This document shows, piece by piece, positions 10,871 to 37,429 of a stretch of 64,000 nt of DNA (the first letter of the stretch is position 1; each line of letters opens with the position of its first letter). The notes beneath the pieces were generated by a model. The model was not told the origin of the DNA, did no database searches, and saw nothing but the letters and a program-made list of their open reading frames with translations. The DNA comes from Mesosutterella porci (GTDB taxonomy: Bacteria > Pseudomonadota > Gammaproteobacteria > Burkholderiales > Burkholderiaceae_F). Position numbers and translations under genes: made by a program. Where the stretch lies: positions 62,001 through 126,000 of the forward strand of contig NZ_JAKNCT010000004.1 of NCBI RefSeq assembly GCF_022134585.1, read 5' to 3'.

Positions 10871-11017
10871 AGCTACATCATGTCACAGCCCGGACCCGGC
10901 GGTCAATACTTTCCGCCGAACCCCGGCCCCGGCCTCCGGGATGATGCGAGGAACAAAAAAGTCCCTCTTTACTCTTTATAATGACCTCTGTCGCCGATCC
11001 CACCTCAAGGAGAACAG

Positions 11018-11437
11018 ATGATGCAGAGAAGAATCCTGCTTGCCCTTCCCGCGGCGCTTGCCGCTTCCGCGCTCCTGTCCGGCTGCGGGCTTTCCGGCGT
11101 CCGGGTCGAGGAGCTGCCGCGCCGGGAGACCAAGGCGGGCGCAAAGCGCATCCGCCAGGCGATTCTCGACACGGCGGGACGGCTGGGCTACAGCGTCGAA
11201 GCCGACCGCCGGGGCGCGGTGACCGTCGTCTACAAGAAGCTCGACCGCGACAGAAAGCCCATGCAGGCCCGCTACCGGATCGACTACGGCGAGCACTGGT
11301 ACCAGATCCACTTCCTGAACAGCAGGGGCCTGAGCGAAGCCCGGGACGAGGGTGGAAACCGCACTGCGCACCGGAAGGTGCAGCAGTGGCAGTCGCAGTT
11401 CGACCGCCACCTGATGAAAGAGCTCGGGGCGAAGTAA
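11018..11437 (+). CDS. Small lipoprotein of unknown function
   Basis: The 139-residue product has a lipoprotein signal peptide with lipobox LLSGC (mature Cys near residue 23). The mature part, with VRVEELPRRETKAGAKRIRQAILDTAGRLGYSVEADRRGAVTVVYKK, has the alpha/beta pattern seen in several small periplasmic lipoproteins, but I do not recognise a named family. AAGGAG at 11007-11012 serves either of two adjacent ATG codons (11018 or 11021). It is transcribed away from the DASS transporter. Confidence 0.75.
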   Translation: MMQRRILLALPAALAASALLSGCGLSGVRVEELPRRETKAGAKRIRQAILDTAGRLGYSVEADRRGAVTVVYKKLDRDRKPMQARYRIDYGEHWYQIHFLNSRGLSEARDEGGNRTAHRKVQQWQSQFDRHLMKELGAK

Positions 11438-11482
11438 GCCCGCCTTTCCAAGCCGGAAAAGAGAAAAGGCGGAGCGGCCCTT

Positions 11483-11647
11483 TCAGCGCCGCCAGAACGT
11501 GCGCCAGGCGAAAAAGAGGGTGTAGAGCACCCCCACCGTCTGGGCCATAGGCCTGCTCGCTCCCGCCCAGAGAAAGCCCCGGTACAGCGCGTAGCCCATG
11601 GCGGCGTAAAAGAGAAAGACGAGAACAACGGCCCAGTCGATCTTCAT
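11483..11647 (-). CDS. Small two-helix membrane protein
   Basis: An ATG at 11647 opens a 54-residue frame: MKIDWAVVLVFLFYAAMG, then a basic/polar turn (RGFLWAGASRPM) and a second hydrophobic segment (TVGVLYTLFFAWRTFWRR). Two membrane spans, charged ends and high third-position GC argue that it is real, although it is short. The function is unknown. It is convergent with the lipoprotein gene. Confidence 0.5.
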   Translation of the reverse strand: MKIDWAVVLVFLFYAAMGYALYRGFLWAGASRPMAQTVGVLYTLFFAWRTFWRR

Positions 11648-11767
11648 GCGCTCTATTTTATGAAAGGCCGCGCCCTTTCGCCCGCTTTTTTCCCTGAAAT
11701 CACAGGGCTCCGATAAAAGGGCATACCTCAGAAGAAGACATCCATCCTAACTGTTTCTTCTGCACTT

Positions 11768-12838
11768 TCACCCGGCATCAACTAAGGCAAGAGCCATAAT
11801 CAGGGCGGCCACGGCCGCTATCAGCTTTCCTGCAAAAAGCGCGGAGATTCCGGCCGGGTATACAGCCGATACGAATCCCAGCTGATCCCCCAAAAGGCAA
11901 AGAGCGGGGCCAGAAAATGCCGAGCATATCACCCTGCCCCGCCGGGTCATTTGATCGAACAAAGTATACGTCGGCAGTGGATTGGCGAGAGCGACAATCA
12001 TTCCCAAAGCTGCAGAGTCATCAATCTTTAAAAACGAAGCGAATGCATGGAGCAGTCCCGCAAAGTGCCTTTGGATAAACAGTACGAAGGGATAGGCCCC
12101 CGCCAGCATCACACTGATTTCCCCAATGAGCTCAAACTGCCGGCCCATAGGGGCCATCCCAGGAATCAGCACAAAACCAAAATAATTTTCAAGTGCAGCA
12201 ACTGCCAGCAGCAGAATGAAGGCGCCGACCAAAAAACGGGAAACAAGAAGGCAGACCTGAGCCGTTTTTTCCGCAAAAAAAGCAAGGGCTCCGGCTACGG
12301 TAGCCGCAAAGATGAAGGCGGGCATGCCTAGTTTCAGAAGAGAGCTCATGGCATAGCCTTCCGCCAGACCGACCCCAAAAAGACTGAGGGGAGCGGCGAT
12401 AATGCCGATGACCAGTCCCTTGGAAACATCCAAACGACTCTCCGAACCGCACATGGAAAGAGAGAGAGGCATCGCATAGGTCAGAATGCAGCCGAACGTT
12501 CCTCCTAAACCAATCCCGGACAGAACCGCCGCCTCACTGCTGTGAGCCATGGACTGGGCTAGTGGCAAACCGCCCATATCTACTCCCAGCACCATCCCCG
12601 CAAATAGTGCCGGATCCGATCCTACGGACTCGAACAGCCTACCGAAAAATGGGCCGATACACGCTCCCAGGGCCGGAGCAGCACACATAATGCCGACCAT
12701 GACCATAGCAAGCGGTCCCATCGTGTTTAACCCCCGCTCAAACTCCCTGCCATAGCCGAACCGATTGTCAAAGAGGGCTTTGTCCACCGCTCCGACAGTC
12801 ATAAAAAAGGCCATGATCCCAATGACCACGGTGCTCAT
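11768..12838 (-). CDS. EutH-type ethanolamine transporter homologue
   Basis: The 356-residue product has about ten membrane segments and matches the EutH family (GNAGALDKALF-like start TVGAVDKALFDNRFGYGREFERGLNTMGPLAMVM, then MGGLPLAQSMAHSSEAAVLSGIGLGGTFGCILTYAMPLSL). EutH takes up ethanolamine in enteric bacteria. No ethanolamine ammonia-lyase or microcompartment gene lies nearby, so its role here is open. It lies downstream of the respiratory operon but behind a strong terminator. GC content is lower than in the flanking genes, as in that operon. Confidence 0.8.
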   Translation of the reverse strand: MSTVVIGIMAFFMTVGAVDKALFDNRFGYGREFERGLNTMGPLAMVMVGIMCAAPALGACIGPFFGRLFESVGSDPALFAGMVLGVDMGGLPLAQSMAHSSEAAVLSGIGLGGTFGCILTYAMPLSLSMCGSESRLDVSKGLVIGIIAAPLSLFGVGLAEGYAMSSLLKLGMPAFIFAATVAGALAFFAEKTAQVCLLVSRFLVGAFILLLAVAALENYFGFVLIPGMAPMGRQFELIGEISVMLAGAYPFVLFIQRHFAGLLHAFASFLKIDDSAALGMIVALANPLPTYTLFDQMTRRGRVICSAFSGPALCLLGDQLGFVSAVYPAGISALFAGKLIAAVAALIMALALVDAG

Positions 12839-28198: not shown

Positions 28199-29140
28199 TC
28201 AGCGCCCATAGCTGAAGATCAGGCGCACGAATTCCTCTTCATTGGGAAAGGTGAAGCTCGCGAAGTGCTCGAAAAGGACGGGGCACAAATCGATTGGGAG
28301 CGAAAGCAGCGGATGAAGGCTCGACAAAGACTTCTCGCTATGGGTTGAAACGGCAAGGCCAGAGTATCCGTGCACGGCATTCAAGAACACCTTGCCGCAG
28401 CCTGCAGTGACCTCATCCACGGGATCCGGGAAACGCATGAAGGCGCAGCCCGCGGCGAGGACGCTCTTTTCGAACCCTGCAGCCATGCATTCCATCAGGT
28501 CTTCGGCGGAGAGCCCCACCTCATAGGCTCCTTCGCGGTAAGAGAGGGGCCTCTCGCCCAGAGCCCGGAAACGGAGTGCGGAGCCTGTCCGGAAATAAAG
28601 GCGGACAGGCACCCGGCCTTCGCCGCTGAACCCGTCAAAGCCGTGCGCGTTCTCGCGAGAAAAGATTCTCAGCCGGGCGGCGTCATCGGAGATGCAAAGC
28701 GCCGCGCCGCGCGGACCTTCCCGGATACTCTCCAAATCCTCGTCCGCCCCGTCCAGCCAGTCAGACAGGCGGGTGCCGTAGACCGCAAGGCCCGGGTAAT
28801 ACGACTGCCCGAAATAATCGAAGGTCACCCGGCCGCTCCGCACGAAAAGCCCTGAGAAAACGGCAAGCTTCCGGTCCTTCACAAAGAACTCAAGCCCGGT
28901 GTCGCGGCTCGCATCCGCAAGAATGCGGATGAGGTCGATCACGATGCGCTCCGCCTTGAAGGGCACCGGCGCCTGCGGCAGGTGCTGCAGGATCCGCCCG
29001 GTTCTCTCATCCGTTTCAAGCGCTGCTTCGTGAATGGCGGCGCGGACCTCCCGGACTTCCGCCTTGAGTCCCAGACGCTGGAATTCACGGAGGGCTAAAA
29101 GCGCATCGGCGAGAGCCACTGTGATGGTTTCTCCGCTCAT
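28199..29140 (-). CDS. Retron-associated protein of unknown function
   Basis: The 313-residue product starts at 29140 with a four-base ATGA overlap with the reverse transcriptase stop, so it is translationally coupled to it. I do not recognise a family. It has an alpha-helical N-terminal third (ALREFQRLGLKAEVREVRAAIHEAALET), then mixed beta-rich sequence (KLAVFSGLFVRSGRVTFDYFGQSYYPGLAVYG), without signal peptide or membrane helices. The position directly behind a retron-type RT is where retron effectors or accessory proteins are usually found, so a defence role is a reasonable inference only. Confidence 0.7.
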   Translation of the reverse strand: MSGETITVALADALLALREFQRLGLKAEVREVRAAIHEAALETDERTGRILQHLPQAPVPFKAERIVIDLIRILADASRDTGLEFFVKDRKLAVFSGLFVRSGRVTFDYFGQSYYPGLAVYGTRLSDWLDGADEDLESIREGPRGAALCISDDAARLRIFSRENAHGFDGFSGEGRVPVRLYFRTGSALRFRALGERPLSYREGAYEVGLSAEDLMECMAAGFEKSVLAAGCAFMRFPDPVDEVTAGCGKVFLNAVHGYSGLAVSTHSEKSLSSLHPLLSLPIDLCPVLFEHFASFTFPNEEEFVRLIFSYGR

Positions 29141-32100
29141 GCTGCCTTGCCTTTCTTTCCTCTGAGCCGGTCGCCCTCTCTCATCCATTTGCGGAGCCGG
29201 ACGGCTTCCTCGGCCGAAGTCATATTCACGAAGGCGATGCGGCCGAGCAGCTGCTCCCTGGTCACGGGACAGCCCAGCCAGGAAGGCTCGAGGCCCTTCC
29301 TCCAGCGGTCGGCCGCTGCGCGCACCCGGCGCCTGTAGTCCCGGGAGACGTCGGGCTTCGCGTTCACCGTAAGCCCCGTGACGACCTGACGGCGCCCGCG
29401 CCGAAAGACGCTGGATTTTTTGGGATCGAGCCTGAGCCCCGCCGCGGAGAGGACCGACCCCGCCCGCGCGATGAGCCCGACCGCCCCTTCGCCTCCCGAA
29501 AAAGCGAGGTCATCCGCGTAGCGCGTATACCGGCAGCCTTTCCGCTTCGCCTCAGAGGCCAGGATTTCATCGGCCTTGAAGAGCACCCGGTTCAAGAGCG
29601 CCGGAGAGGCGGGAGAACCCATCGGGAGCCCCCCGTCCAGCGTGCAGAGGTCGGCGATGAGGGCGCAGGCGGGAGCCCCCAGCCTGGGGCCCAGGTCCCT
29701 TTCAAGCACCCGGTACAGCACAGGCCAGGCCACCGAGGGAAAGCAGTTGTGGACGTCGGCCACCGCCACCACGGGCTGGCCCGAGTGCACGGACGCATTG
29801 TCTGCGATGGACTTGCCGGCCACAAACCCCATCGCGGCCGGGTGCGCGCCCAAGGGAGCGATCAGGCGCTCAAGGACTCCGCGCTGCAGGAACTTGAGCT
29901 TTTTAATCGGTTCCGAAATGAGCCTCTTCCCGCCATGCTTTTTCGGGATATGGAACCTGCGGTAGCTTTTTTGCAACCGGCAGCCCGGGGCGGCTTTCCA
30001 GTCCATCGCGGAAATGAGCCATTTCACGATCCTCGCCTGTTTGCCGGGCCAAAGTCCCGCCACAAGCCCCGCTTCAGCGGACACAAGGAGCCGCCCTGCC
30101 CGGGCGGCAAGCCTCGCAACCTCTTCCAGCGTGCCGCGGGCAGCGGCCTCTGCATCCGGGCCTTGGAAGCTCCGGGCGAAGACATCCAGCACCTCGCACA
30201 GTTCGTTTGCATCCCGCTTGTCGCAGGAGGCGCAGAGCGCGAGGAAAAGCTTTTCCCGAGTCCAGCTCTTGACATCCCGGCATCCCCAGGCGAGCCTGAC
30301 GGGAAGGCCTGCAAGAAAAAACTTCTTCGCGAGCTCGATAGCCTTTTGGGGCCTTAGCCGGTCAAAAGCCTGCCGGGCCGCCGGGACCCGCGCTTCCTTC
30401 GGGCCATGAAGCGCGATCGCCTGGAGGACTTCGACATCGGTGCAATGGTCAATGATTTCGAGAACTGCCTCTGCGGGCGCTTTGTGCAGAACCCGAAGCA
30501 GCGCCCCGCCGCCGCGCCTCACTCCCGCGGGGGTGAGCATCAGGGCAAGCAGATCTTCCCGGCAGTTCGGCCCAATCTCATTCAAGGCGGGGGCGATGCT
30601 TTGCCCGGGGCCGTTGTAAGAGGCCGCCCCCCAGGCGCAGCAGCGGGCCTCCCGAAGAAGCCATTCCGCGAGCCCGACCTCCCGTGCAGAAAGCGCTCCG
30701 GGGGCTGCTCCCGCTTCGCCGGGTTCAAACCGGCGCGCGGCTCGGGCGGCAAGCCGGGCAACGATAAGCCGCGCCTTCCTGGAAAGGCGCCTGCTGCCCG
30801 CCGGCTCCGGCGCGCAGGCTTCGAGCGCCTGGCGCAGGCCCGCCCTGTCCGGGTCTCCGCAGAGCTCGCACAGCGCAAGGAAAAGTTTTTCTGCGCTCCA
30901 GCTTCCCCGGTCGAGCCATCCCGGAGCAAGCCTGACAGGCAGGCCCGCGAGGAAAAGCTTCCGCCCGAGCGCGGCGGCTTTCCCCGGCGCAAGCTGGTCG
31001 TAAGCCCTGAGGGCAGCTGGAACTCTTGCTTCCTCGGGGCCATGAAGTGCGATCGCACGGAGAACATCGCCCTCCTCGCATCTGTCCGCGATATGACGCA
31101 CCGCATCCGCCGATGCCCGGGGCAGGACCCGAAGCAGCGCCCCGCGGCAGCGCCTCAGCCCCGCGGGGGTGAGCATCAGGGCAAGCAGATCCTCCAGGCA
31201 GTACGGCCCGACCTCCTCCAGGGCCGGAGCGAGGCTCCCCGCCCTGCCCCGAAAGGAAGCAGACCCCCAAGCGAAGCAGAGGGCTTCAGCTTGTTGTGGC
31301 TCGAGACAGGCCCCTCCCGCCTTTTCCCAAAGTGGGGAGCCGTGGAAATCATAAATAAAGCGCTCTTTTATCTTCTTGTTGTTGTAAAAGTCCAGGGACA
31401 GATCCCCGGAGGGATGATGGCGAGCCACGAAGCGCAGGTAGGCCGAAGCGTCCTTTTCAGCAGTCAGTTCTTCCTGCAGGCGATCCTTTGCGTTCCAGAC
31501 AGTATCCCAGCTCTCCTGCAGAAGAATGAATTTCCAATTGGCCGCGCCCTTGCGGCAGCCGTCTTCCAAGTCGAAAAGCTGCAGCCAATGCCCGCTTTCT
31601 TCGAGCCGCCGTTTCTGCCGCTCGGAGCTCACCAGCAGAAGGAACCTCTGGTATTCCCGTGGAAAGTAGCAGTTAGCCCGCGCACCCTTGGCCAATTCCA
31701 CCAGGAAGGAGGCCTGGCCCGACCTGTTCCAGCCAGGCAGGATCTTTCCAAAAAGATGCCGCAGGAGGGCGCCCACCCGGGGATTTCCCTCCAGACTGCG
31801 CCTTTCCCCCAGCCAGTCTCGCCGCCCCTTCGGAGTCGGCTCCTCCTGTACCGCGGCTTTCAGGAAGAGCTGATAGCCGGGGGATTCCTTGAACCGCCTA
31901 AGAAGCTTCGGCTCGCCCGAGAAGGCCCGCAGCAATGATTCCGACACGATGAAGACCGCTTCGTATTCCCCTGTCTTTGAGAAAGCGTAAAACAAGTACC
32001 CGAGCAGCGTCATCCCGGCCGGGGCGCGGACGTCAATCGAAAAGTCCTTCTTCGGCGGCAGGAGAAAGAAGCTCCTCACCGCCGGGCTCCGGATCGCAAT

Positions 32101-32817
32101 CGAAGCATCCCGCCCCAGAAAAGCGGCACAGGCGGCGGGAATCTTTTTAATCCTGATGCCCAGCCTCGCGCAGGCGTCGGCGAAGCCCAGAAGGGTCCTG
32201 GTCAGCCAGCGGCAGCTCAGATGGGGAAGAGTCGGAGGCAGGCAGCGGAATACATCCCAGGCCGAAACGCACGCCGGGCGCTTGCGCCGGCTTTCGACAA
32301 CCAGGCGTCCCAGCTTCATGCAGGTGTCGATCGGAGGGGTGAAGCTGCCTATGGGAAAGACCTCCCTGTATTTGTCGAGGGCAGACTCTTCGTCAAGATA
32401 GGGGTTGTGGGGCCCTCTCTCAACGGCCTTGAGCAACGGGCTCGCGGCCGGGGGATACTGCCGGGGCACCGCATCCGCCTGCCGCACAGCTTCAAGAAGA
32501 GCCTGCCGCCCCGGCTGCCCGGCGCACCAGAGCGCGGAGATCCTCAGGCAGTCCCAAAAAGGCGAATACGCGGCAGAGATCCAGGCCTCCTGATAAGCCC
32601 GCGCCTCGTCCTTGCCCTTGAAAAGGGGCCTGACCCGGGCGGGCCACAGCTGCTCCACTGCGCTGCGGATTTTTTTCCAGTATTCCTCCGGGACGGAAGG
32701 CGCAAAGGGATCTCCCCGGGGAAGCGCACGGGGAATCGCGAAGTCCAGGGAATTGACGGCGTCGCGGATTTCCAAGGAAAACGACGATTCGTCTTTGGCC
32801 TGGCGGAAGTTTTTCAT
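29137..32817 (-). CDS. Giant retron-type reverse transcriptase with long N-terminal repeat region
   Basis: The protein has 1226 residues. Residues 1 to about 510 are unrecognised. Residues 514-725 and 726-937 form a tandem repeat with a 212-residue period, each containing ED LLALMLTPAG, AIALHGP(E/K)EARVP and LAGLPVRLA. RT domain, about 950-1215: FHIPKKHGGKRLI, the retron motif NAxxH (NASVH, 1007-1011), catalytic Asp1021 in ADVHNCFPS, GLPMGSPASPALLN, YADD (1100-1103) and the second retron motif VTG (VVTGLTVN). Usual retron RTs have only 300-400 residues. All catalytic residues are present. A structured segment lies just upstream and an overlapping gene downstream. GGAAGGAGG serves the ATG at 32817 with a long spacer. 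Confidence 0.85.
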   Translation of the reverse strand: MKNFRQAKDESSFSLEIRDAVNSLDFAIPRALPRGDPFAPSVPEEYWKKIRSAVEQLWPARVRPLFKGKDEARAYQEAWISAAYSPFWDCLRISALWCAGQPGRQALLEAVRQADAVPRQYPPAASPLLKAVERGPHNPYLDEESALDKYREVFPIGSFTPPIDTCMKLGRLVVESRRKRPACVSAWDVFRCLPPTLPHLSCRWLTRTLLGFADACARLGIRIKKIPAACAAFLGRDASIAIRSPAVRSFFLLPPKKDFSIDVRAPAGMTLLGYLFYAFSKTGEYEAVFIVSESLLRAFSGEPKLLRRFKESPGYQLFLKAAVQEEPTPKGRRDWLGERRSLEGNPRVGALLRHLFGKILPGWNRSGQASFLVELAKGARANCYFPREYQRFLLLVSSERQKRRLEESGHWLQLFDLEDGCRKGAANWKFILLQESWDTVWNAKDRLQEELTAEKDASAYLRFVARHHPSGDLSLDFYNNKKIKERFIYDFHGSPLWEKAGGACLEPQQAEALCFAWGSASFRGRAGSLAPALEEVGPYCLEDLLALMLTPAGLRRCRGALLRVLPRASADAVRHIADRCEEGDVLRAIALHGPEEARVPAALRAYDQLAPGKAAALGRKLFLAGLPVRLAPGWLDRGSWSAEKLFLALCELCGDPDRAGLRQALEACAPEPAGSRRLSRKARLIVARLAARAARRFEPGEAGAAPGALSAREVGLAEWLLREARCCAWGAASYNGPGQSIAPALNEIGPNCREDLLALMLTPAGVRRGGGALLRVLHKAPAEAVLEIIDHCTDVEVLQAIALHGPKEARVPAARQAFDRLRPQKAIELAKKFFLAGLPVRLAWGCRDVKSWTREKLFLALCASCDKRDANELCEVLDVFARSFQGPDAEAAARGTLEEVARLAARAGRLLVSAEAGLVAGLWPGKQARIVKWLISAMDWKAAPGCRLQKSYRRFHIPKKHGGKRLISEPIKKLKFLQRGVLERLIAPLGAHPAAMGFVAGKSIADNASVHSGQPVVAVADVHNCFPSVAWPVLYRVLERDLGPRLGAPACALIADLCTLDGGLPMGSPASPALLNRVLFKADEILASEAKRKGCRYTRYADDLAFSGGEGAVGLIARAGSVLSAAGLRLDPKKSSVFRRGRRQVVTGLTVNAKPDVSRDYRRRVRAAADRWRKGLEPSWLGCPVTREQLLGRIAFVNMTSAEEAVRLRKWMREGDRLRGKKGKAA

Positions 32818-32825
32818 AAGGCGTG

Positions 32826-33076
32826 CATCCTCCTTCCCTCCTGATCACTTAAGTTTCCTCCGGAGTCTCCGAAGGCGACCCTGTGGACTTCAAAACACTG
32901 TCAGACTGCGGAATGCGCAGCAGAACGCAGATGAAGCGTTGTGAATCCACAGTTCGACTGAGGAGAACTCGACTTCCCGAGGCCTTCAGGCCGAAGGAGG
33001 CGAGACTCCCCGGCGTATTTCCCTCAGCCGGCGAATCGCCGGCAAAACCTGATTTTTTGCGGAAGGAAGGGGGATG
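32826..33076 (-). ncRNA. Candidate retron msr-msd RNA
   Basis: On the RT strand, immediately upstream of the RT start, the segment is bounded by CATCCCCCTTCCTTCC (33076 to 33061) and GGAGGGAAGGAGGATG (32841 to 32826). These pair in 14 of 16 positions, plus a G-T pair, and resemble the a1/a2 arms of retrons. Directly after a1 come two small hairpins (CAAAA/TTTTG, 33043-33059; CCGGCG/CGCCGG, 33028-33042), as in msr. A longer arm, GGAGTCTC/GAGACTCC (33002-33009 with 32862-32869), then encloses about 130 bases holding an 11-bp stem with one bulge (32881-32892 with 32942-32952) and inner hairpins (32924-32940), as expected of msd. Found by eye; ends approximate. Confidence 0.6.
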
Positions 33077-33082
33077 GAATTT

Positions 33083-33091
33083 ATGTTAGCA
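33083..33091 (-). promoter_or_regulatory. Extended -10 promoter element for the retron RNA
   Basis: On the minus strand TGCTAACAT is an extended -10 (TGn-TAACAT) lying 6-7 bases before the first base of the a1 arm at 33076. Transcription would therefore start at about the expected 5' end of the retron RNA. No good -35 is visible, which is acceptable for an extended -10 promoter. Confidence 0.4.
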
Positions 33092-33227: not shown

Positions 33228-34220
33228 ATGAGAGCCGGCCGGCTGACAGAGGTTCTGGAAAAACTGCTTAAGGCAGCCCGCTGGGCCGCCTTCATCTGGG
33301 GCGCGCCCGGCACCGGAAAGAGCTCCATCGTGAGGGAGGCGGCGGCGAAGATGAAGCTGCCCGTGGTTGACCTGCGGGCTTCGCTCCTTGACCCCACGGA
33401 CCTGCGGGGTCTCCCGATGGTGAAGGACGGCCGGGTCCTCTGGTGCCCGCCCGCCTTCCTGCCGACCCCGGAGATGAAGCCCGGAGTCCTCTTCCTGGAC
33501 GAGATCAACGCCGCTCCTCCGCTCGTCCAGGCCGCCATGTACCAGCTCGTGCTCGACCGCCGCGTGGGCGAGTACGCGCTGCCCCCGGGCTGGAGGATCA
33601 TCGCAGCGGGCAACCGCGCGTCCGACCGCGCGGTGACCTTCAGGCTGTCCTCGGCGCTTGCCAACCGCTTCATCCACCTCACGCTCGAGCCCGACATCCA
33701 CAGCTGGAGCGAATGGGCGTTCAGTCACCGCGTGCGCCCTGAGGTGATAGGGCTGCTGCGCTACCGCTCGGAGCTCCTCTACACAAAGCCTGGGGAAGGC
33801 GCCGCCTTTGCGACGCCCAGGTCCTGGGAAATGGCCTCCGACGCCCTGAAGGCATTCGGAGGGATCAAAGAGGCGCGCGACGTGCTCCCCGGGATTGTGG
33901 GCGAGGGCCCCGCGGCCGAACTCGCGGCGTTTGCCGGGAACGCCGCGATCGCACGTGAAATAGAGGCTCTGCTCAAGGACCCCGAGGGCGCTCCGATTCC
34001 CAAGCAGCTCGACCACCTCTGGGCCCTTGTCACCCACCTCGCCTCCGGTGCGGGCGGCTCCGAACAGGGCGCTGCGGCGATCGAAGCACTCCTTTTCAGG
34101 CTCCCCGCGGAATTCGCCGTGGTGCTCGCGCGCGACACGCTGAAGGTCTCGCCCAAATTCATGCTGAAGCCCGCCTTCCGCAGGTTCATGAAGGAAAACG
34201 CTTCGCTCTTCAAGAGCTGA
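33228..34220 (+). CDS. MoxR-type AAA+ ATPase
   Basis: The 330-residue protein has Walker A GAPGTGKSS (residues 25-33), Walker B VLFLDEIN, sensor-1 AAGNRASDR and an arginine-rich ALANRFIHL segment. MoxR ATPases work as chaperones for a partner that carries a von Willebrand A domain, encoded next door in this case (14-base gap). The ribosome site is GGGAGGG before the ATG at 33228. It is transcribed away from the retron RNA, sharing a 150-base promoter region. Whether the pair belongs to the retron system is not shown. Confidence 0.85.
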   Translation: MRAGRLTEVLEKLLKAARWAAFIWGAPGTGKSSIVREAAAKMKLPVVDLRASLLDPTDLRGLPMVKDGRVLWCPPAFLPTPEMKPGVLFLDEINAAPPLVQAAMYQLVLDRRVGEYALPPGWRIIAAGNRASDRAVTFRLSSALANRFIHLTLEPDIHSWSEWAFSHRVRPEVIGLLRYRSELLYTKPGEGAAFATPRSWEMASDALKAFGGIKEARDVLPGIVGEGPAAELAAFAGNAAIAREIEALLKDPEGAPIPKQLDHLWALVTHLASGAGGSEQGAAAIEALLFRLPAEFAVVLARDTLKVSPKFMLKPAFRRFMKENASLFKS

Positions 34221-34234
34221 AGAGGAGGCAAGCC

Positions 34235-35548
34235 ATGCAGCGGGCCTCCCAGGAAACACTTGAAAAAGCGCGCAACGCCGTGCTCAAGGCCCGCGTGAGC
34301 CTTGCGATGCGCCGCCCCTTCCTCGCCACGGCGCTTCTCGAGCTTCCGGTCCGAGTGCTTGGGGCCGGAGTGCCGACCGCCTGCACGGACGGCTACCGGA
34401 TCATCGTGTCAGCCGAGTTCGCCCTCACCCTCACGCAGCCAGAGCTTCGCGGGCTCCTCGCCCACGAGCTGCTGCACGTGGTGCTCCAGCACAGCGACCG
34501 AAGGGGCGCACGCAACCCCTGGGCCTGGAACATCGCCTGCGACTACGCCGTGAACAACCTGCTGGCCGAGGCCGGATTTTCGATTCCAGAGGGCGGGCTG
34601 CTGCCTCCCCGAAATCTTAAAAACTGTTCGGCCGAGGCCATTTACGACCTCCTTCTCTCCCGCAGGAAAACCGCCGGCGCCGGGCCCGGGCCGGCGCCTC
34701 TTTCCTCCCCTGACGGGTCCATCGAAATCACCCCCCTTGCAAGGCGCCCGGAGAATCGGGACGAAGAAAAAGATCCGGCGGGGGTGATCCCGGGGCCCTG
34801 CGCCGAGGCCGCGGCCGACCTCGTCGACTCCCAGTCGCTTCCTTCGACGCTCGCCCGAAGCGAGGACGACGCGGAAGACGCGAGTGCGAAGAAAATCGTC
34901 GCCCGAATCCGCCGCGAATTCTGTCAGCAGGCGAAAAGCCAAGGCTTTTTCCCCGGCTCAGAGATGGAGGAATTAAAGGCGGGGCCAAAGCCCTCGGTCA
35001 ACTGGCGCGCGCATCTCGCTCGCTTTCTGACCGAAACGCTCAAGACCGACTGGAGGCTTTTTCCGCCCTCGAAGCGCTTCATCTCCCAGGGACTCTACCT
35101 CCCCTCATGCGGCGCCCCGGCCCTGGGATGGATCGTTTTCGCAATCGACACCTCGGGCTCCATGTCGGATGAGGAAATCAGCCAGATCCTCTCTGAGCTT
35201 CAGGCCTTCCGCGAGACTTTCCCTTGCCGCCTCACGGTCCTTCAGGCCGATGCAGACATTGCGGGCGTCTCGGAATTCGAGGCCTGGGATTTCCCGAATC
35301 CGAAGGAGCAGTGGACCATAGCGGGCTGGGGCGGCACGGACTTTCGGCCGGTATTCAAATGGGTGCGGGACAAAACAGCGAAAGAGGGAGAGCCGCCCGC
35401 TGCCCTGATTTACGCGACCGACGGCTACGGGACCTTCCCTGATGCCCCGGGCCTGCCCGTCATCTGGCTGGTCACACCGAACGGAGCAGGAAGGGAATGC
35501 TTCCCCGAGTGGGGAGCATGGGTGCAGCTCCAGGAGCCCGACCGATAA
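34235..35548 (+). CDS. Putative metallopeptidase with VWA-like domain (DUF2201 type)
   Basis: The 437-residue product has a zinc-metallopeptidase motif HELLH (residues 77-81) within LLAHELLHVVLQH, then WNIACDYAVNNLL, an acidic linker and a C-terminal VWA-like domain with the MIDAS sequence DTSGSMS. This arrangement is the DUF2201 family, normally paired with a MoxR-type ATPase as here. GAGGAGG precedes the ATG at 34235. It may be an ATPase-regulated protease or metal-dependent assembly factor. The target is unknown. Confidence 0.83.
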   Translation: MQRASQETLEKARNAVLKARVSLAMRRPFLATALLELPVRVLGAGVPTACTDGYRIIVSAEFALTLTQPELRGLLAHELLHVVLQHSDRRGARNPWAWNIACDYAVNNLLAEAGFSIPEGGLLPPRNLKNCSAEAIYDLLLSRRKTAGAGPGPAPLSSPDGSIEITPLARRPENRDEEKDPAGVIPGPCAEAAADLVDSQSLPSTLARSEDDAEDASAKKIVARIRREFCQQAKSQGFFPGSEMEELKAGPKPSVNWRAHLARFLTETLKTDWRLFPPSKRFISQGLYLPSCGAPALGWIVFAIDTSGSMSDEEISQILSELQAFRETFPCRLTVLQADADIAGVSEFEAWDFPNPKEQWTIAGWGGTDFRPVFKWVRDKTAKEGEPPAALIYATDGYGTFPDAPGLPVIWLVTPNGAGRECFPEWGAWVQLQEPDR

Positions 35549-35717: not shown

Positions 35718-36016
35718 ATGTCAGTTCAAGCCACCGAACTGGGCGGGGACGGCACCTCCGCCATCGTGCACCGCGTCCGCGCCTTCAACCGCTTCTACAT
35801 GCCGGCCATGAACCTACTCGGCGACCATTACCGCGGCTCCGAATACCCAGTGACAGCCGCGAGGATCTTTTACGAAATCTACTCGAATGAAGGCTGCAAC
35901 GCGGCCTTTATCGCCAAAACGATGCGGGTCGACAAAAGCTATCTCTCCCGCCTCATCAGCAGGCATGAGAAAAACGGCTGTATTAAAAGGAGACCCTCGG
36001 AGAAAGACGGCCGGTC
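35718..36016 (+). pseudogene. MarR-family regulator, truncated by insertion elements
   Basis: The frame from ATG 35718 encodes about 100 residues of a MarR winged helix (VHRVRAFNRFYMPAMNLLG, then YPVTAARIFYEI, AAFIAKTMRVDKSYLSRLISRHEKNGCIKRRPSEKDGRS). The IS3-family element enters at the wing. If the element and one GTC target copy are removed, the frame continues with SLRLFP, the expected wing sequence, for about ten codons before reaching the ISL3 remnant. The gene was therefore intact before two insertion events. The C-terminal half is gone. Confidence 0.75.
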
Positions 36017-36057
36017 TGAACTGTCCCCAGAAGGTGAGACACTTTCTGGGGATTTTC

Positions 36058-36576
36058 ATGTCCAAAAAGATCTCGATTGAAATTCGTCAAAAAGTATTGA
36101 CGTTACTGAAGCAGGGAGCTCGATCCTTTACGATCTCAAAACAGCTGGGATTGGCCCGCATTAGCGTAGAAAACTGGCAAGCGGCATTTGATCGTGGTGA
36201 TGTTTCATGGAGCCTGGATAACAGCTGGCGGAAAAGAACTGAAGCCATGGCGTGGCAGGCTGTCAGGGGGTACGCTGTTTGTCAATCGTACAATGCGGCG
36301 GGCTGTGCTTTGGGGATGAGCGCCAGCGATATACGTCGGTATGTGCAAAACGTTGAAAAGTTCGGCGCTCCCATCCTCAAAAGAGGGGTCCGTTGCCAAG
36401 CCCCGGAGATCAAGAGCATGCCTGATAAAACAACTGCATCCCGCGGCAAAGAAAATGTGGCCAAAGAGCTTAAGACAGCCCGGAGGACCATTGAGGAACA
36501 GCGGATTGTCCTGGACTGCCTGCTGAAGTCCATAGACGAGCATCTGGGCTCAAAAAAAACAATGTGCCATCCTTGA
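36058..36576 (+). CDS. IS3-family OrfA (HTH protein)
   Basis: The 172-residue product starts at ATG 36058 with a helix-turn-helix region (ISIEIRQKVLTLLKQGARSFTISKQLGLARISVENW) and ends with a helical region (KELKTARRTIEEQRIVLDCLLKSI) like the leucine-zipper part of OrfA. Its last codons run over an A8 tract (36552-36559), where the orfB frame overlaps it. It is needed for binding the IS ends. Confidence 0.8.
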   Translation: MSKKISIEIRQKVLTLLKQGARSFTISKQLGLARISVENWQAAFDRGDVSWSLDNSWRKRTEAMAWQAVRGYAVCQSYNAAGCALGMSASDIRRYVQNVEKFGAPILKRGVRCQAPEIKSMPDKTTASRGKENVAKELKTARRTIEEQRIVLDCLLKSIDEHLGSKKTMCHP

Positions 36577-37429
36577 TTCGGCAATTAAGAGCGCACATCG
36601 CAGCGGGGTATCCGTTGCCCGAGCTTGCGAAATTGCAGGTGCCAGCCGGAGCACCTTTTACCGCCGTATTGGAAATCCTGGTAAAAGAGTGCTCGCGGCT
36701 AAGGCTCCTGGCGATCGCATCAAAGTGCTCCAAAAACGCCACGAAGGACGATATGGCGTCAGAAGGATGACGGCAGCCCTTCGCATGGATGGCCATGAAC
36801 GAAAACCCGGACACAACCAAGTCGCACGCGCCATGAAGGAACTTGGATGCCAGGCCGTGATTCGAAGGAAGAGCACATACAGAGTCAGCCTCACAAAGGG
36901 GCGGCTGACCGACGGGACTGTTCTCGAGAACACGCTGAATCGCAAATTTACTCAACAGGAGCCGGGCAAGGTGTTTGTGACGGATGTGACCTATATTCCA
37001 ACTAAAACTGGCTGGCTCTATCTTTCGCTCGTTATGGATCTTTGCACTCGCGAAATCGTCGTCTGTGAAATGAGCCCCTGCCAAAATATGGCGCTTGCGA
37101 TGCAGACGCTCCACTCGCTTAAGGCGGTGGCCAGCGGACCGGCTGTGCTGCACAGCGACCAAGGAGTGCTGTTCACCAGCCCGATGTTCAGGAAACAAGC
37201 TCGGGATTACGGCTTTAAGCAGAGCTATTCACGCAAAGGGAACTGTTGGGACAACGCCGTCATGGAGGGCTGGAACGGAACGCTGAAGACGGAGTGGCTG
37301 TACCACCCGGACAAGCGCTTTGACAAAAATCTGTTGACTTTTAACCAGGCCCGGCGGGAAATTGAAGCCTATTGCGCCTATTACAATGAGAAACGCATTC
37401 AAGCGAAATTAAGTTACCGCTCCCCCTGA
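36536..37429 (+). CDS. IS3-family OrfB, DDE transposase
   Basis: The frame is open from 36536 and encodes CAILDSAIKSAHRSGVSVARACEIAG, then the catalytic core: first D in VFVTDVTYIPTK, second D in LHSDQGVLF, E in NAVMEGWNGTLKTEWL. No ATG with a ribosome site opens it (a GTG lies at 36689), so it is probably made as an OrfA-OrfB fusion by slippage at A8. The frame is +1 relative to orfA, whereas most IS3 elements use -1 shifting. Confidence 0.8.
   Translation, partial: TSIWAQKKQCAILDSAIKSAHRSGVSVARACEIAGASRSTFYRRIGNPGKRVLAAKAPGDRIKVLQKRHEGRYGVRRMTAALRMDGHERKPGHNQVARAMKELGCQAVIRRKSTYRVSLTKGRLTDGTVLENTLNRKFTQQEPGKVFVTDVTYIPTKTGWLYLSLVMDLCTREIVVCEMSPCQNMALAMQTLHSLKAVASGPAVLHSDQGVLFTSPMFRKQARDYGFKQSYSRKGNCWDNAVMEGWNGTLKTEWLYHPDKRFDKNLLTFNQARREIEAYCAYYNEKRIQAKLSYRSP

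Follow-up and report, generated by a model that had tools for sequence, protein, structure and literature searches.

We conclude, with a probability of roughly 0.85, that the 251-base segment upstream of a reverse transcriptase (RT) gene in Mesosutterella porci (positions 32826–33076, minus strand, of the 64,000-nucleotide stretch analysed here, referred to as the window) encodes the msr-msd RNA for a retron belonging to a distinct lineage, which has a gene set of its own; this figure covers the retron RNA and its lineage. Retrons are bacterial elements that make small RNA-DNA hybrids, usually for phage sensing. The gene set of this lineage consists of an RT fused to a solenoid-like domain, a fast-evolving protein of ∼330 amino acids (P2), an AAA+ ATPase of the MoxR type, and a protein of the DUF2201 family with VWA and HExxH features (Table 1). 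The original prediction of an msr-msd-like RNA mentioned neither the accessory genes nor the fusion of the RT to a helical domain of ∼930 aa, and the find is larger than it stated: a retron lineage in which the RT is fused to a solenoid-like domain and accompanied by MoxR and VWA proteins.

Table 1. Features of the retron locus, in window positions.
Feature	Positions	Strand	Basis or remark
Extended −10-like TGCTAACAT upstream of a1	33083–33091	−	Read from sequence; weak
a1 arm (CATCCCCCTTCCTTCC)	33061–33076	−	15 of 16 positions paired with a2; sequence-divergent counterpart with pairing kept in seven other loci
TCAGG motif 3′ of a1	33048–33052	−	G33049 is the candidate branching/priming guanosine (putative role)
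msr hairpin GCCGGCG-ATT-CGCCGGC, 7 bp with 3-nt loop	33027–33043	−	Same 7-3-7 geometry in eight loci, with compensatory changes
Second local hairpin of the RNA	32962–33009	−	MFE fold
Long hairpin, probable msd (reverse-transcribed) stem	32881–32952	−	Basal seven pairs at probability ∼0.98–1.0
Short hairpin between msd stem and a2	32857–32879	−	MFE fold
AAGTGA motif directly 5′ of a2, probable template start (putative role)	32845–32850	−	AAGTGA, AGTGA or AAGTAA similarly placed in 7 of 8 loci
a2 arm; overlaps the RT gene's ribosome-binding site	32826–32841	−	Pairs with a1
RT gene, 1226 aa: ∼930-aa helical N-terminal region and C-terminal retron-type RT	29137–32817	−	Pfam RVT_1 at residues 957–1140; PADLOC RT_XIII best model, 207 bits
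RT domain, residues ∼949–1213, with NASVH (1007), YADD (1100), VTG (1146)	29179–29973	−	Pfam, PADLOC, motifs
P2, 329-aa accessory protein, overlapping the RT gene end	28199–29188	−	Similar-sized protein in the same position after the RT in all readable relatives
MoxR-type AAA+ ATPase, 330 aa, divergent	33228–34220	+	Pfam AAA_5/AAA_3; bpMoxR weak, below cut-off
DUF2201 protein, 437 aa: HExxH metallopeptidase-like and VWA-like domain with DTSGS	34235–35548	+	Pfam DUF2201_N 2e-37, DUF2201 3e-19

The segment has a predicted folding energy of −117.7 kcal/mol as compared to a mean of −87.1 for shuffled sequences (z = −6.5), and none of 200 dinucleotide shuffles folded equally well. Its 16-base terminal arms, a1 and a2, for which 14 paired positions had been claimed, in fact pair in 15 (14 Watson-Crick pairs and one G-U, with one mismatch), each pair having a probability of at least 0.94, and an arm-only shuffle test gave p ∼0.001. 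Of two short hairpins predicted beside a1, one is strong (pair probabilities 0.82–0.94) and the other only weak. A long arm joining 33002–33009 to 32862–32869 had also been proposed; the two stretches are complementary on paper, but their pair probability is 0.00 and forcing them together costs ∼10 kcal/mol. We rejected this arm; in the predicted fold, its strands fall in the separate local hairpins that flank the probable msd stem. The extended −10 element that was thought to start transcription at a1 is present 7 nt upstream of it, but no −35 is recognizable and a promoter scan found nothing, so this part of the prediction is weak. Neither the window RNA nor those of its relatives had a match in Rfam.

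The downstream gene encodes an RT that PADLOC retron RT models match at 1e-50 to 1e-61 and whose best PDB relatives are the solved retron RTs Ec78, Ec86, Ec83, and Ec67 (E 1e-20 to 1e-22). All three motifs given for retron RTs, YADD, NAxxH, and VTG (PMC12405507), are present; among eight aligned RTs of the lineage, YADD and NAxxH occur in all and VTG in seven, the eighth (L037, described below) having CTG. The RT proteins of the clade are 950–1226 aa long, with the RT at the C-terminus and a solenoid-like N-terminus. The ∼930-aa N-terminal region of the window protein matched no family. The corresponding region of one relative (L084) is predicted to be entirely helical, with ∼40 helices (pLDDT 81), and the solved folds nearest to this model are HEAT/ARM/importin-like solenoids, none at E ≤ 0.001. 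Within the window protein, residues ∼509–930 (30028–31290) form two head-to-tail copies of ∼213 aa that are ∼53% identical, including 115-base stretches 86–87% identical in DNA, a pattern pointing to a rather recent duplication of helical repeats.

The genome from which the window derives (2.4 Mb) has a counterpart in the same genus (G433) with a copy that is 98–99% identical and an RNA that is 100% identical. That copy (L036, G433:C2:8000-20000; L080) looks inactive because insertion-sequence DNA carrying transposase genes lies between the RNA and the RT gene, whose reading frame is broken; the window copy, unlike it, is intact. Another genus of the same family (G411) carries a 1069-aa RT protein that is 50% identical in the RT part (L037). 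This locus has an integrase-like gene on one side and a WYL-type regulator-like gene on the other (L037:94-1377 and 10963-11865, named by sequence inspection), suggesting that it lies within a mobile island. Scans with the whole RT as a single protein found nothing in viral contigs or in species-representative genome contigs (84,980 species, one genome each). Use of a two-sequence alignment of the RT part (window and L037) yielded eleven close relatives (L081–L091, 41–55% identity), mostly from Burkholderiales, together with Verrucomicrobia and an Acidiferrobacteraceae genome. Only distant RTs came from viral contigs, phages, and plasmids, and none of them spanned the N-terminal region. In a tree of 99 RTs, those of this architecture form one clade (support 100/98). 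Planctomycete and Hydrogenedentota RTs (L097, L098, L101, L102, and L104) join the clade in the tree (98/95), and MoxR-DUF2201 genes are absent from their neighbors.

Readable DNA upstream of the RT was available at nine loci, and the RNA was recognized in eight of them (the window and seven relatives); no recognizable retron RNA preceded the RT of L083 (L083:3300-3695), which by tree path is the closest RT relative of the window. The parts come in one order in all eight loci. The a1 arm is followed by the motif T[CT][AT]G[GA] and, after a 4-nt spacer, by a 7-bp hairpin with a loop of 3 nt; then come additional hairpins, among them a long one, the AAGTGA-like motif (7 of 8), a2, and the RT start. 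The G of the first motif is invariant, its distance of 4 nt from the hairpin is the same in all eight, and a long hairpin occurs at the matching place in every relative with the RNA. This common order, together with the retron-type motifs of the RT, supports the msr-msd arrangement that the original prediction had put forward.

Covariation in homologs, which that prediction had named as a check, is likewise observed. The arm sequences of a1 and a2 vary among loci and their pairing is retained: in an equal-length composite of the eight loci (11-bp arms and 7-bp hairpin), 97.2% of cells are paired, although the arms entering this count were selected as best-pairing windows, a choice that favors pairing. 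Double changes are found in 13 of 18 pairs: all 11 in the a1/a2 arms and 2 of the 7 in the hairpin. Covariation scores 0.82 as compared to 0.23 in shuffled data and 0.19–0.25 when partners are slid by 1–3 columns, so that the signal is lost on sliding. When the same best-window search was applied to shuffled DNA, seven loci gave p values of 0.001–0.004, and L037, in which the arms pair only with a bulge, gave 0.29. A covariance model of the a1-hairpin part was significant only for its eight training loci among 91 sources, and a hold-out covariance model built from the other seven RNAs gave the window RNA a non-significant score (12 bits, E 0.63). A sequence pattern from those seven loci had its sole window match at 33027–33052 (three mismatches, 0.14 matches expected). 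Because the hold-out model failed, the case for the window RNA rests on its a1/a2 pairing, its geometry, and this pattern match; it is a diverged member of the set, supported more by its own arms and geometry than by its sequence.

In the relatives, the RT is followed by a protein of ∼300–350 aa (P2), a MoxR-like AAA+ ATPase, and a DUF2201 protein, often with overlapping frames. The window ATPase is 47–64% identical to those of the relatives' loci, with invariant Walker motifs, and HExxH and DTSxS are invariant in ten DUF2201 sequences. P2 of the window matched no family in Pfam, PADLOC, or NCBIfam and nothing in plasmids, and its AlphaFold2 model (pLDDT 76) had no significant fold match. As the P2 groups are too divergent to be joined by profile comparison, the name denotes a common position and size rather than demonstrated homology. 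A DNA methylase-type gene lies between RT and P2 in three relatives (L088:6888-7685, L090:634-1500, and L091:781-1575; Pfam N6_N4_Mtase for L088). In the window, IS3-like transposase reading frames (35887–37429) lie just 3′ of the DUF2201 gene.

Whether the AAA-VWA genes (33228–35548) belong to the retron must be weighed against the possibility that they are an independent pair merely adjoining it. The pair is divergently oriented in the window and upstream of the RT in L037, and close homologs of it (AAA 58–67% identical) occur in two other genomes of the same family (L071:8986-11377 in G436 and L072:9036-11282 in G149) with no RT nearby, which shows that the pair can stand by itself. On the other hand, nine relatives have RT, P2, and AAA in a same-strand row, often overlapping, followed by the VWA gene where the contig extends far enough. 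The AAA gene adjoins the RT/P2 block in 11 of 12 clade loci with a readable neighborhood; L091 lacks AAA-VWA in its neighborhood, and the contig of L083 ends before the AAA position. By comparison, AAA-VWA is not found close to any of the 69 RT loci outside the clade (L095 has a dissimilar pair ∼4.5 kb away), and the pair is thus restricted to this clade among the RT loci compared. We therefore consider chance adjacency unlikely and retain the pair as part of the retron's gene set.

A second alternative concerns the RNA itself, which could be a cis-regulatory leader whose a1/a2 pairing hides the ribosome site and controls RT synthesis, no msDNA being made. As originally predicted, a2 does overlap the RT gene's purine-rich ribosome site (GGAGGGAAGGAGGATG ends 8 nt before the ATG), and this overlap recurs in relatives, a2 ending 0–8 nt ahead of the RT start in six of seven and 19 nt ahead in L089. 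Because of this recurrence, the suggested control of RT translation by folding is plausible, and the overlap may limit RT synthesis. A leader leaves unexplained, however, the conserved hairpin, the invariant G and its spacing, the long hairpin, the AAGTGA-like motif, and the presence of a retron-type RT with NAxxH and VTG. As the sole function of the RNA, such a role is very improbable; it can coexist with the retron reading, which we prefer.

As a retron, the locus had to be placed among known systems. ARM and WHSWIM partners define retron type XIII. PADLOC RT_XIII is the best model for the RTs of the clade (207–241 bits), and type XIII also has a large ARM-type partner, although there it is a separate gene (∼1030–1080 aa; loci L177–L182). 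The likeness is partial: a true type XIII RT of the same order (L003) fits RT_XIII over positions 4–460 of 469 with 617 bits, whereas the best stretch in the window RT covers only 272–421 of 469 with 207 bits. Moreover, type XIII loci have separate ARM-size (∼1030–1160 aa) and SWIM-like (∼550–650 aa) genes with no MoxR/VWA nearby, their RTs form another clade in the tree, and the PADLOC ARM and WHSWIM models matched nothing in the N-terminal region, P2, AAA, or VWA. Type XIII membership was rejected because of the partial RT_XIII match, the different neighbor genes, and the separate clade. Judged from its RT motifs and predicted RNA anatomy, the element is a retron that is not of type XIII.

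With the canonical retrons Eco1/Ec86, Eco2/Ec67, and Ec78 the locus shares its RT domain (at the E values given above), the YADD, NAxxH, and VTG motifs, and an a1-msr-msd-a2 RNA upstream of the RT; those retrons differ in lacking the ∼930-aa solenoid fusion and MoxR-VWA and in having other effectors. Some DRT systems use a folded RNA without branched msDNA, and the very large N-terminal domain and the distance of the clade from biochemically studied retrons (RT match only E 1e-20 to 1e-22) might suggest a non-canonical defense RT of that kind acting on a real RNA, but a1/a2 closure, the G beside a1, and NAxxH with VTG are retron features, and this is the least probable of the alternatives.

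Conflict systems built on a MoxR-vWA core pair plus a third component are known, including VMAP, iSTAND, and others (PMC7159879), and the window has such a core pair of MoxR ATPase and VWA protein with a further component. It differs in that the further component is a retron and the VWA protein is of the DUF2201 HExxH type; a search of the locus proteins gave no VMAP match and only a weak bpMoxR match below the cut-off, and with no VMAP component and a DUF2201-type VWA protein the locus was not assigned to the VMAP ternary systems. Linkage of MoxR-vWA has been described to diversity-generating retroelements, not to retrons (PMC7159879). A literature search that covered sources other than the original type I–XIII definition paper found no retron with MoxR, VWA, or DUF2201. 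The gene context is new relative to PADLOC 2.0.0 and the literature searched.

In known retrons, a1 and a2 close the ncRNA and DNA synthesis begins at a G beside the repeats (PMC8989520). By analogy, a1 and a2 would close the RNA molecule here, the RT may prime at the conserved G33049 beside a1, and the template would start near 32845, just before a2, from where the RT would copy back into the 32881–32952 hairpin to give msDNA. For MoxR-vWA pairs, it has been proposed that a peptide of the substrate is captured and the substrate let go in a changed conformation, restructuring the complex with a further component (PMC7159879). In the simplest model, a complex of msDNA, RT, and solenoid, possibly with P2, would be that further component. 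The msDNA-loaded RT and its helical domain, perhaps together with P2, would act as a sensor or lock; disturbance of the msDNA or the RT complex by a phage would switch on the MoxR-VWA pair, which would remodel or cleave a target and so stop the infected cell. Anti-phage defense with msDNA as sensor and MoxR-VWA as executor is thus the function we infer as most likely. Taken by itself, the executor model is tentative and stands somewhat below even odds. That the locus represents a new retron type, in which an α-solenoid is fused to the RT and a MoxR AAA+/VWA metallopeptidase machine is under msDNA control, is a proposition that we hold at just short of an even chance; if true, it would be the first retron with an ATP-driven remodeling and protease module as executor.

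Retron types differ chiefly in how msDNA is coupled to the effector. The RNA anatomy described here, including the ribosome site that a2 overlaps, defines the exact construct with which this lineage can be studied, and it opens a testable question, namely whether msDNA integrity gates an AAA+ machine. In Burkholderiales, Verrucomicrobia, and an Acidiferrobacteraceae genome, the lineage couples a retron to a MoxR and VWA/metallopeptidase pair, bringing together two defense themes that were previously described apart.
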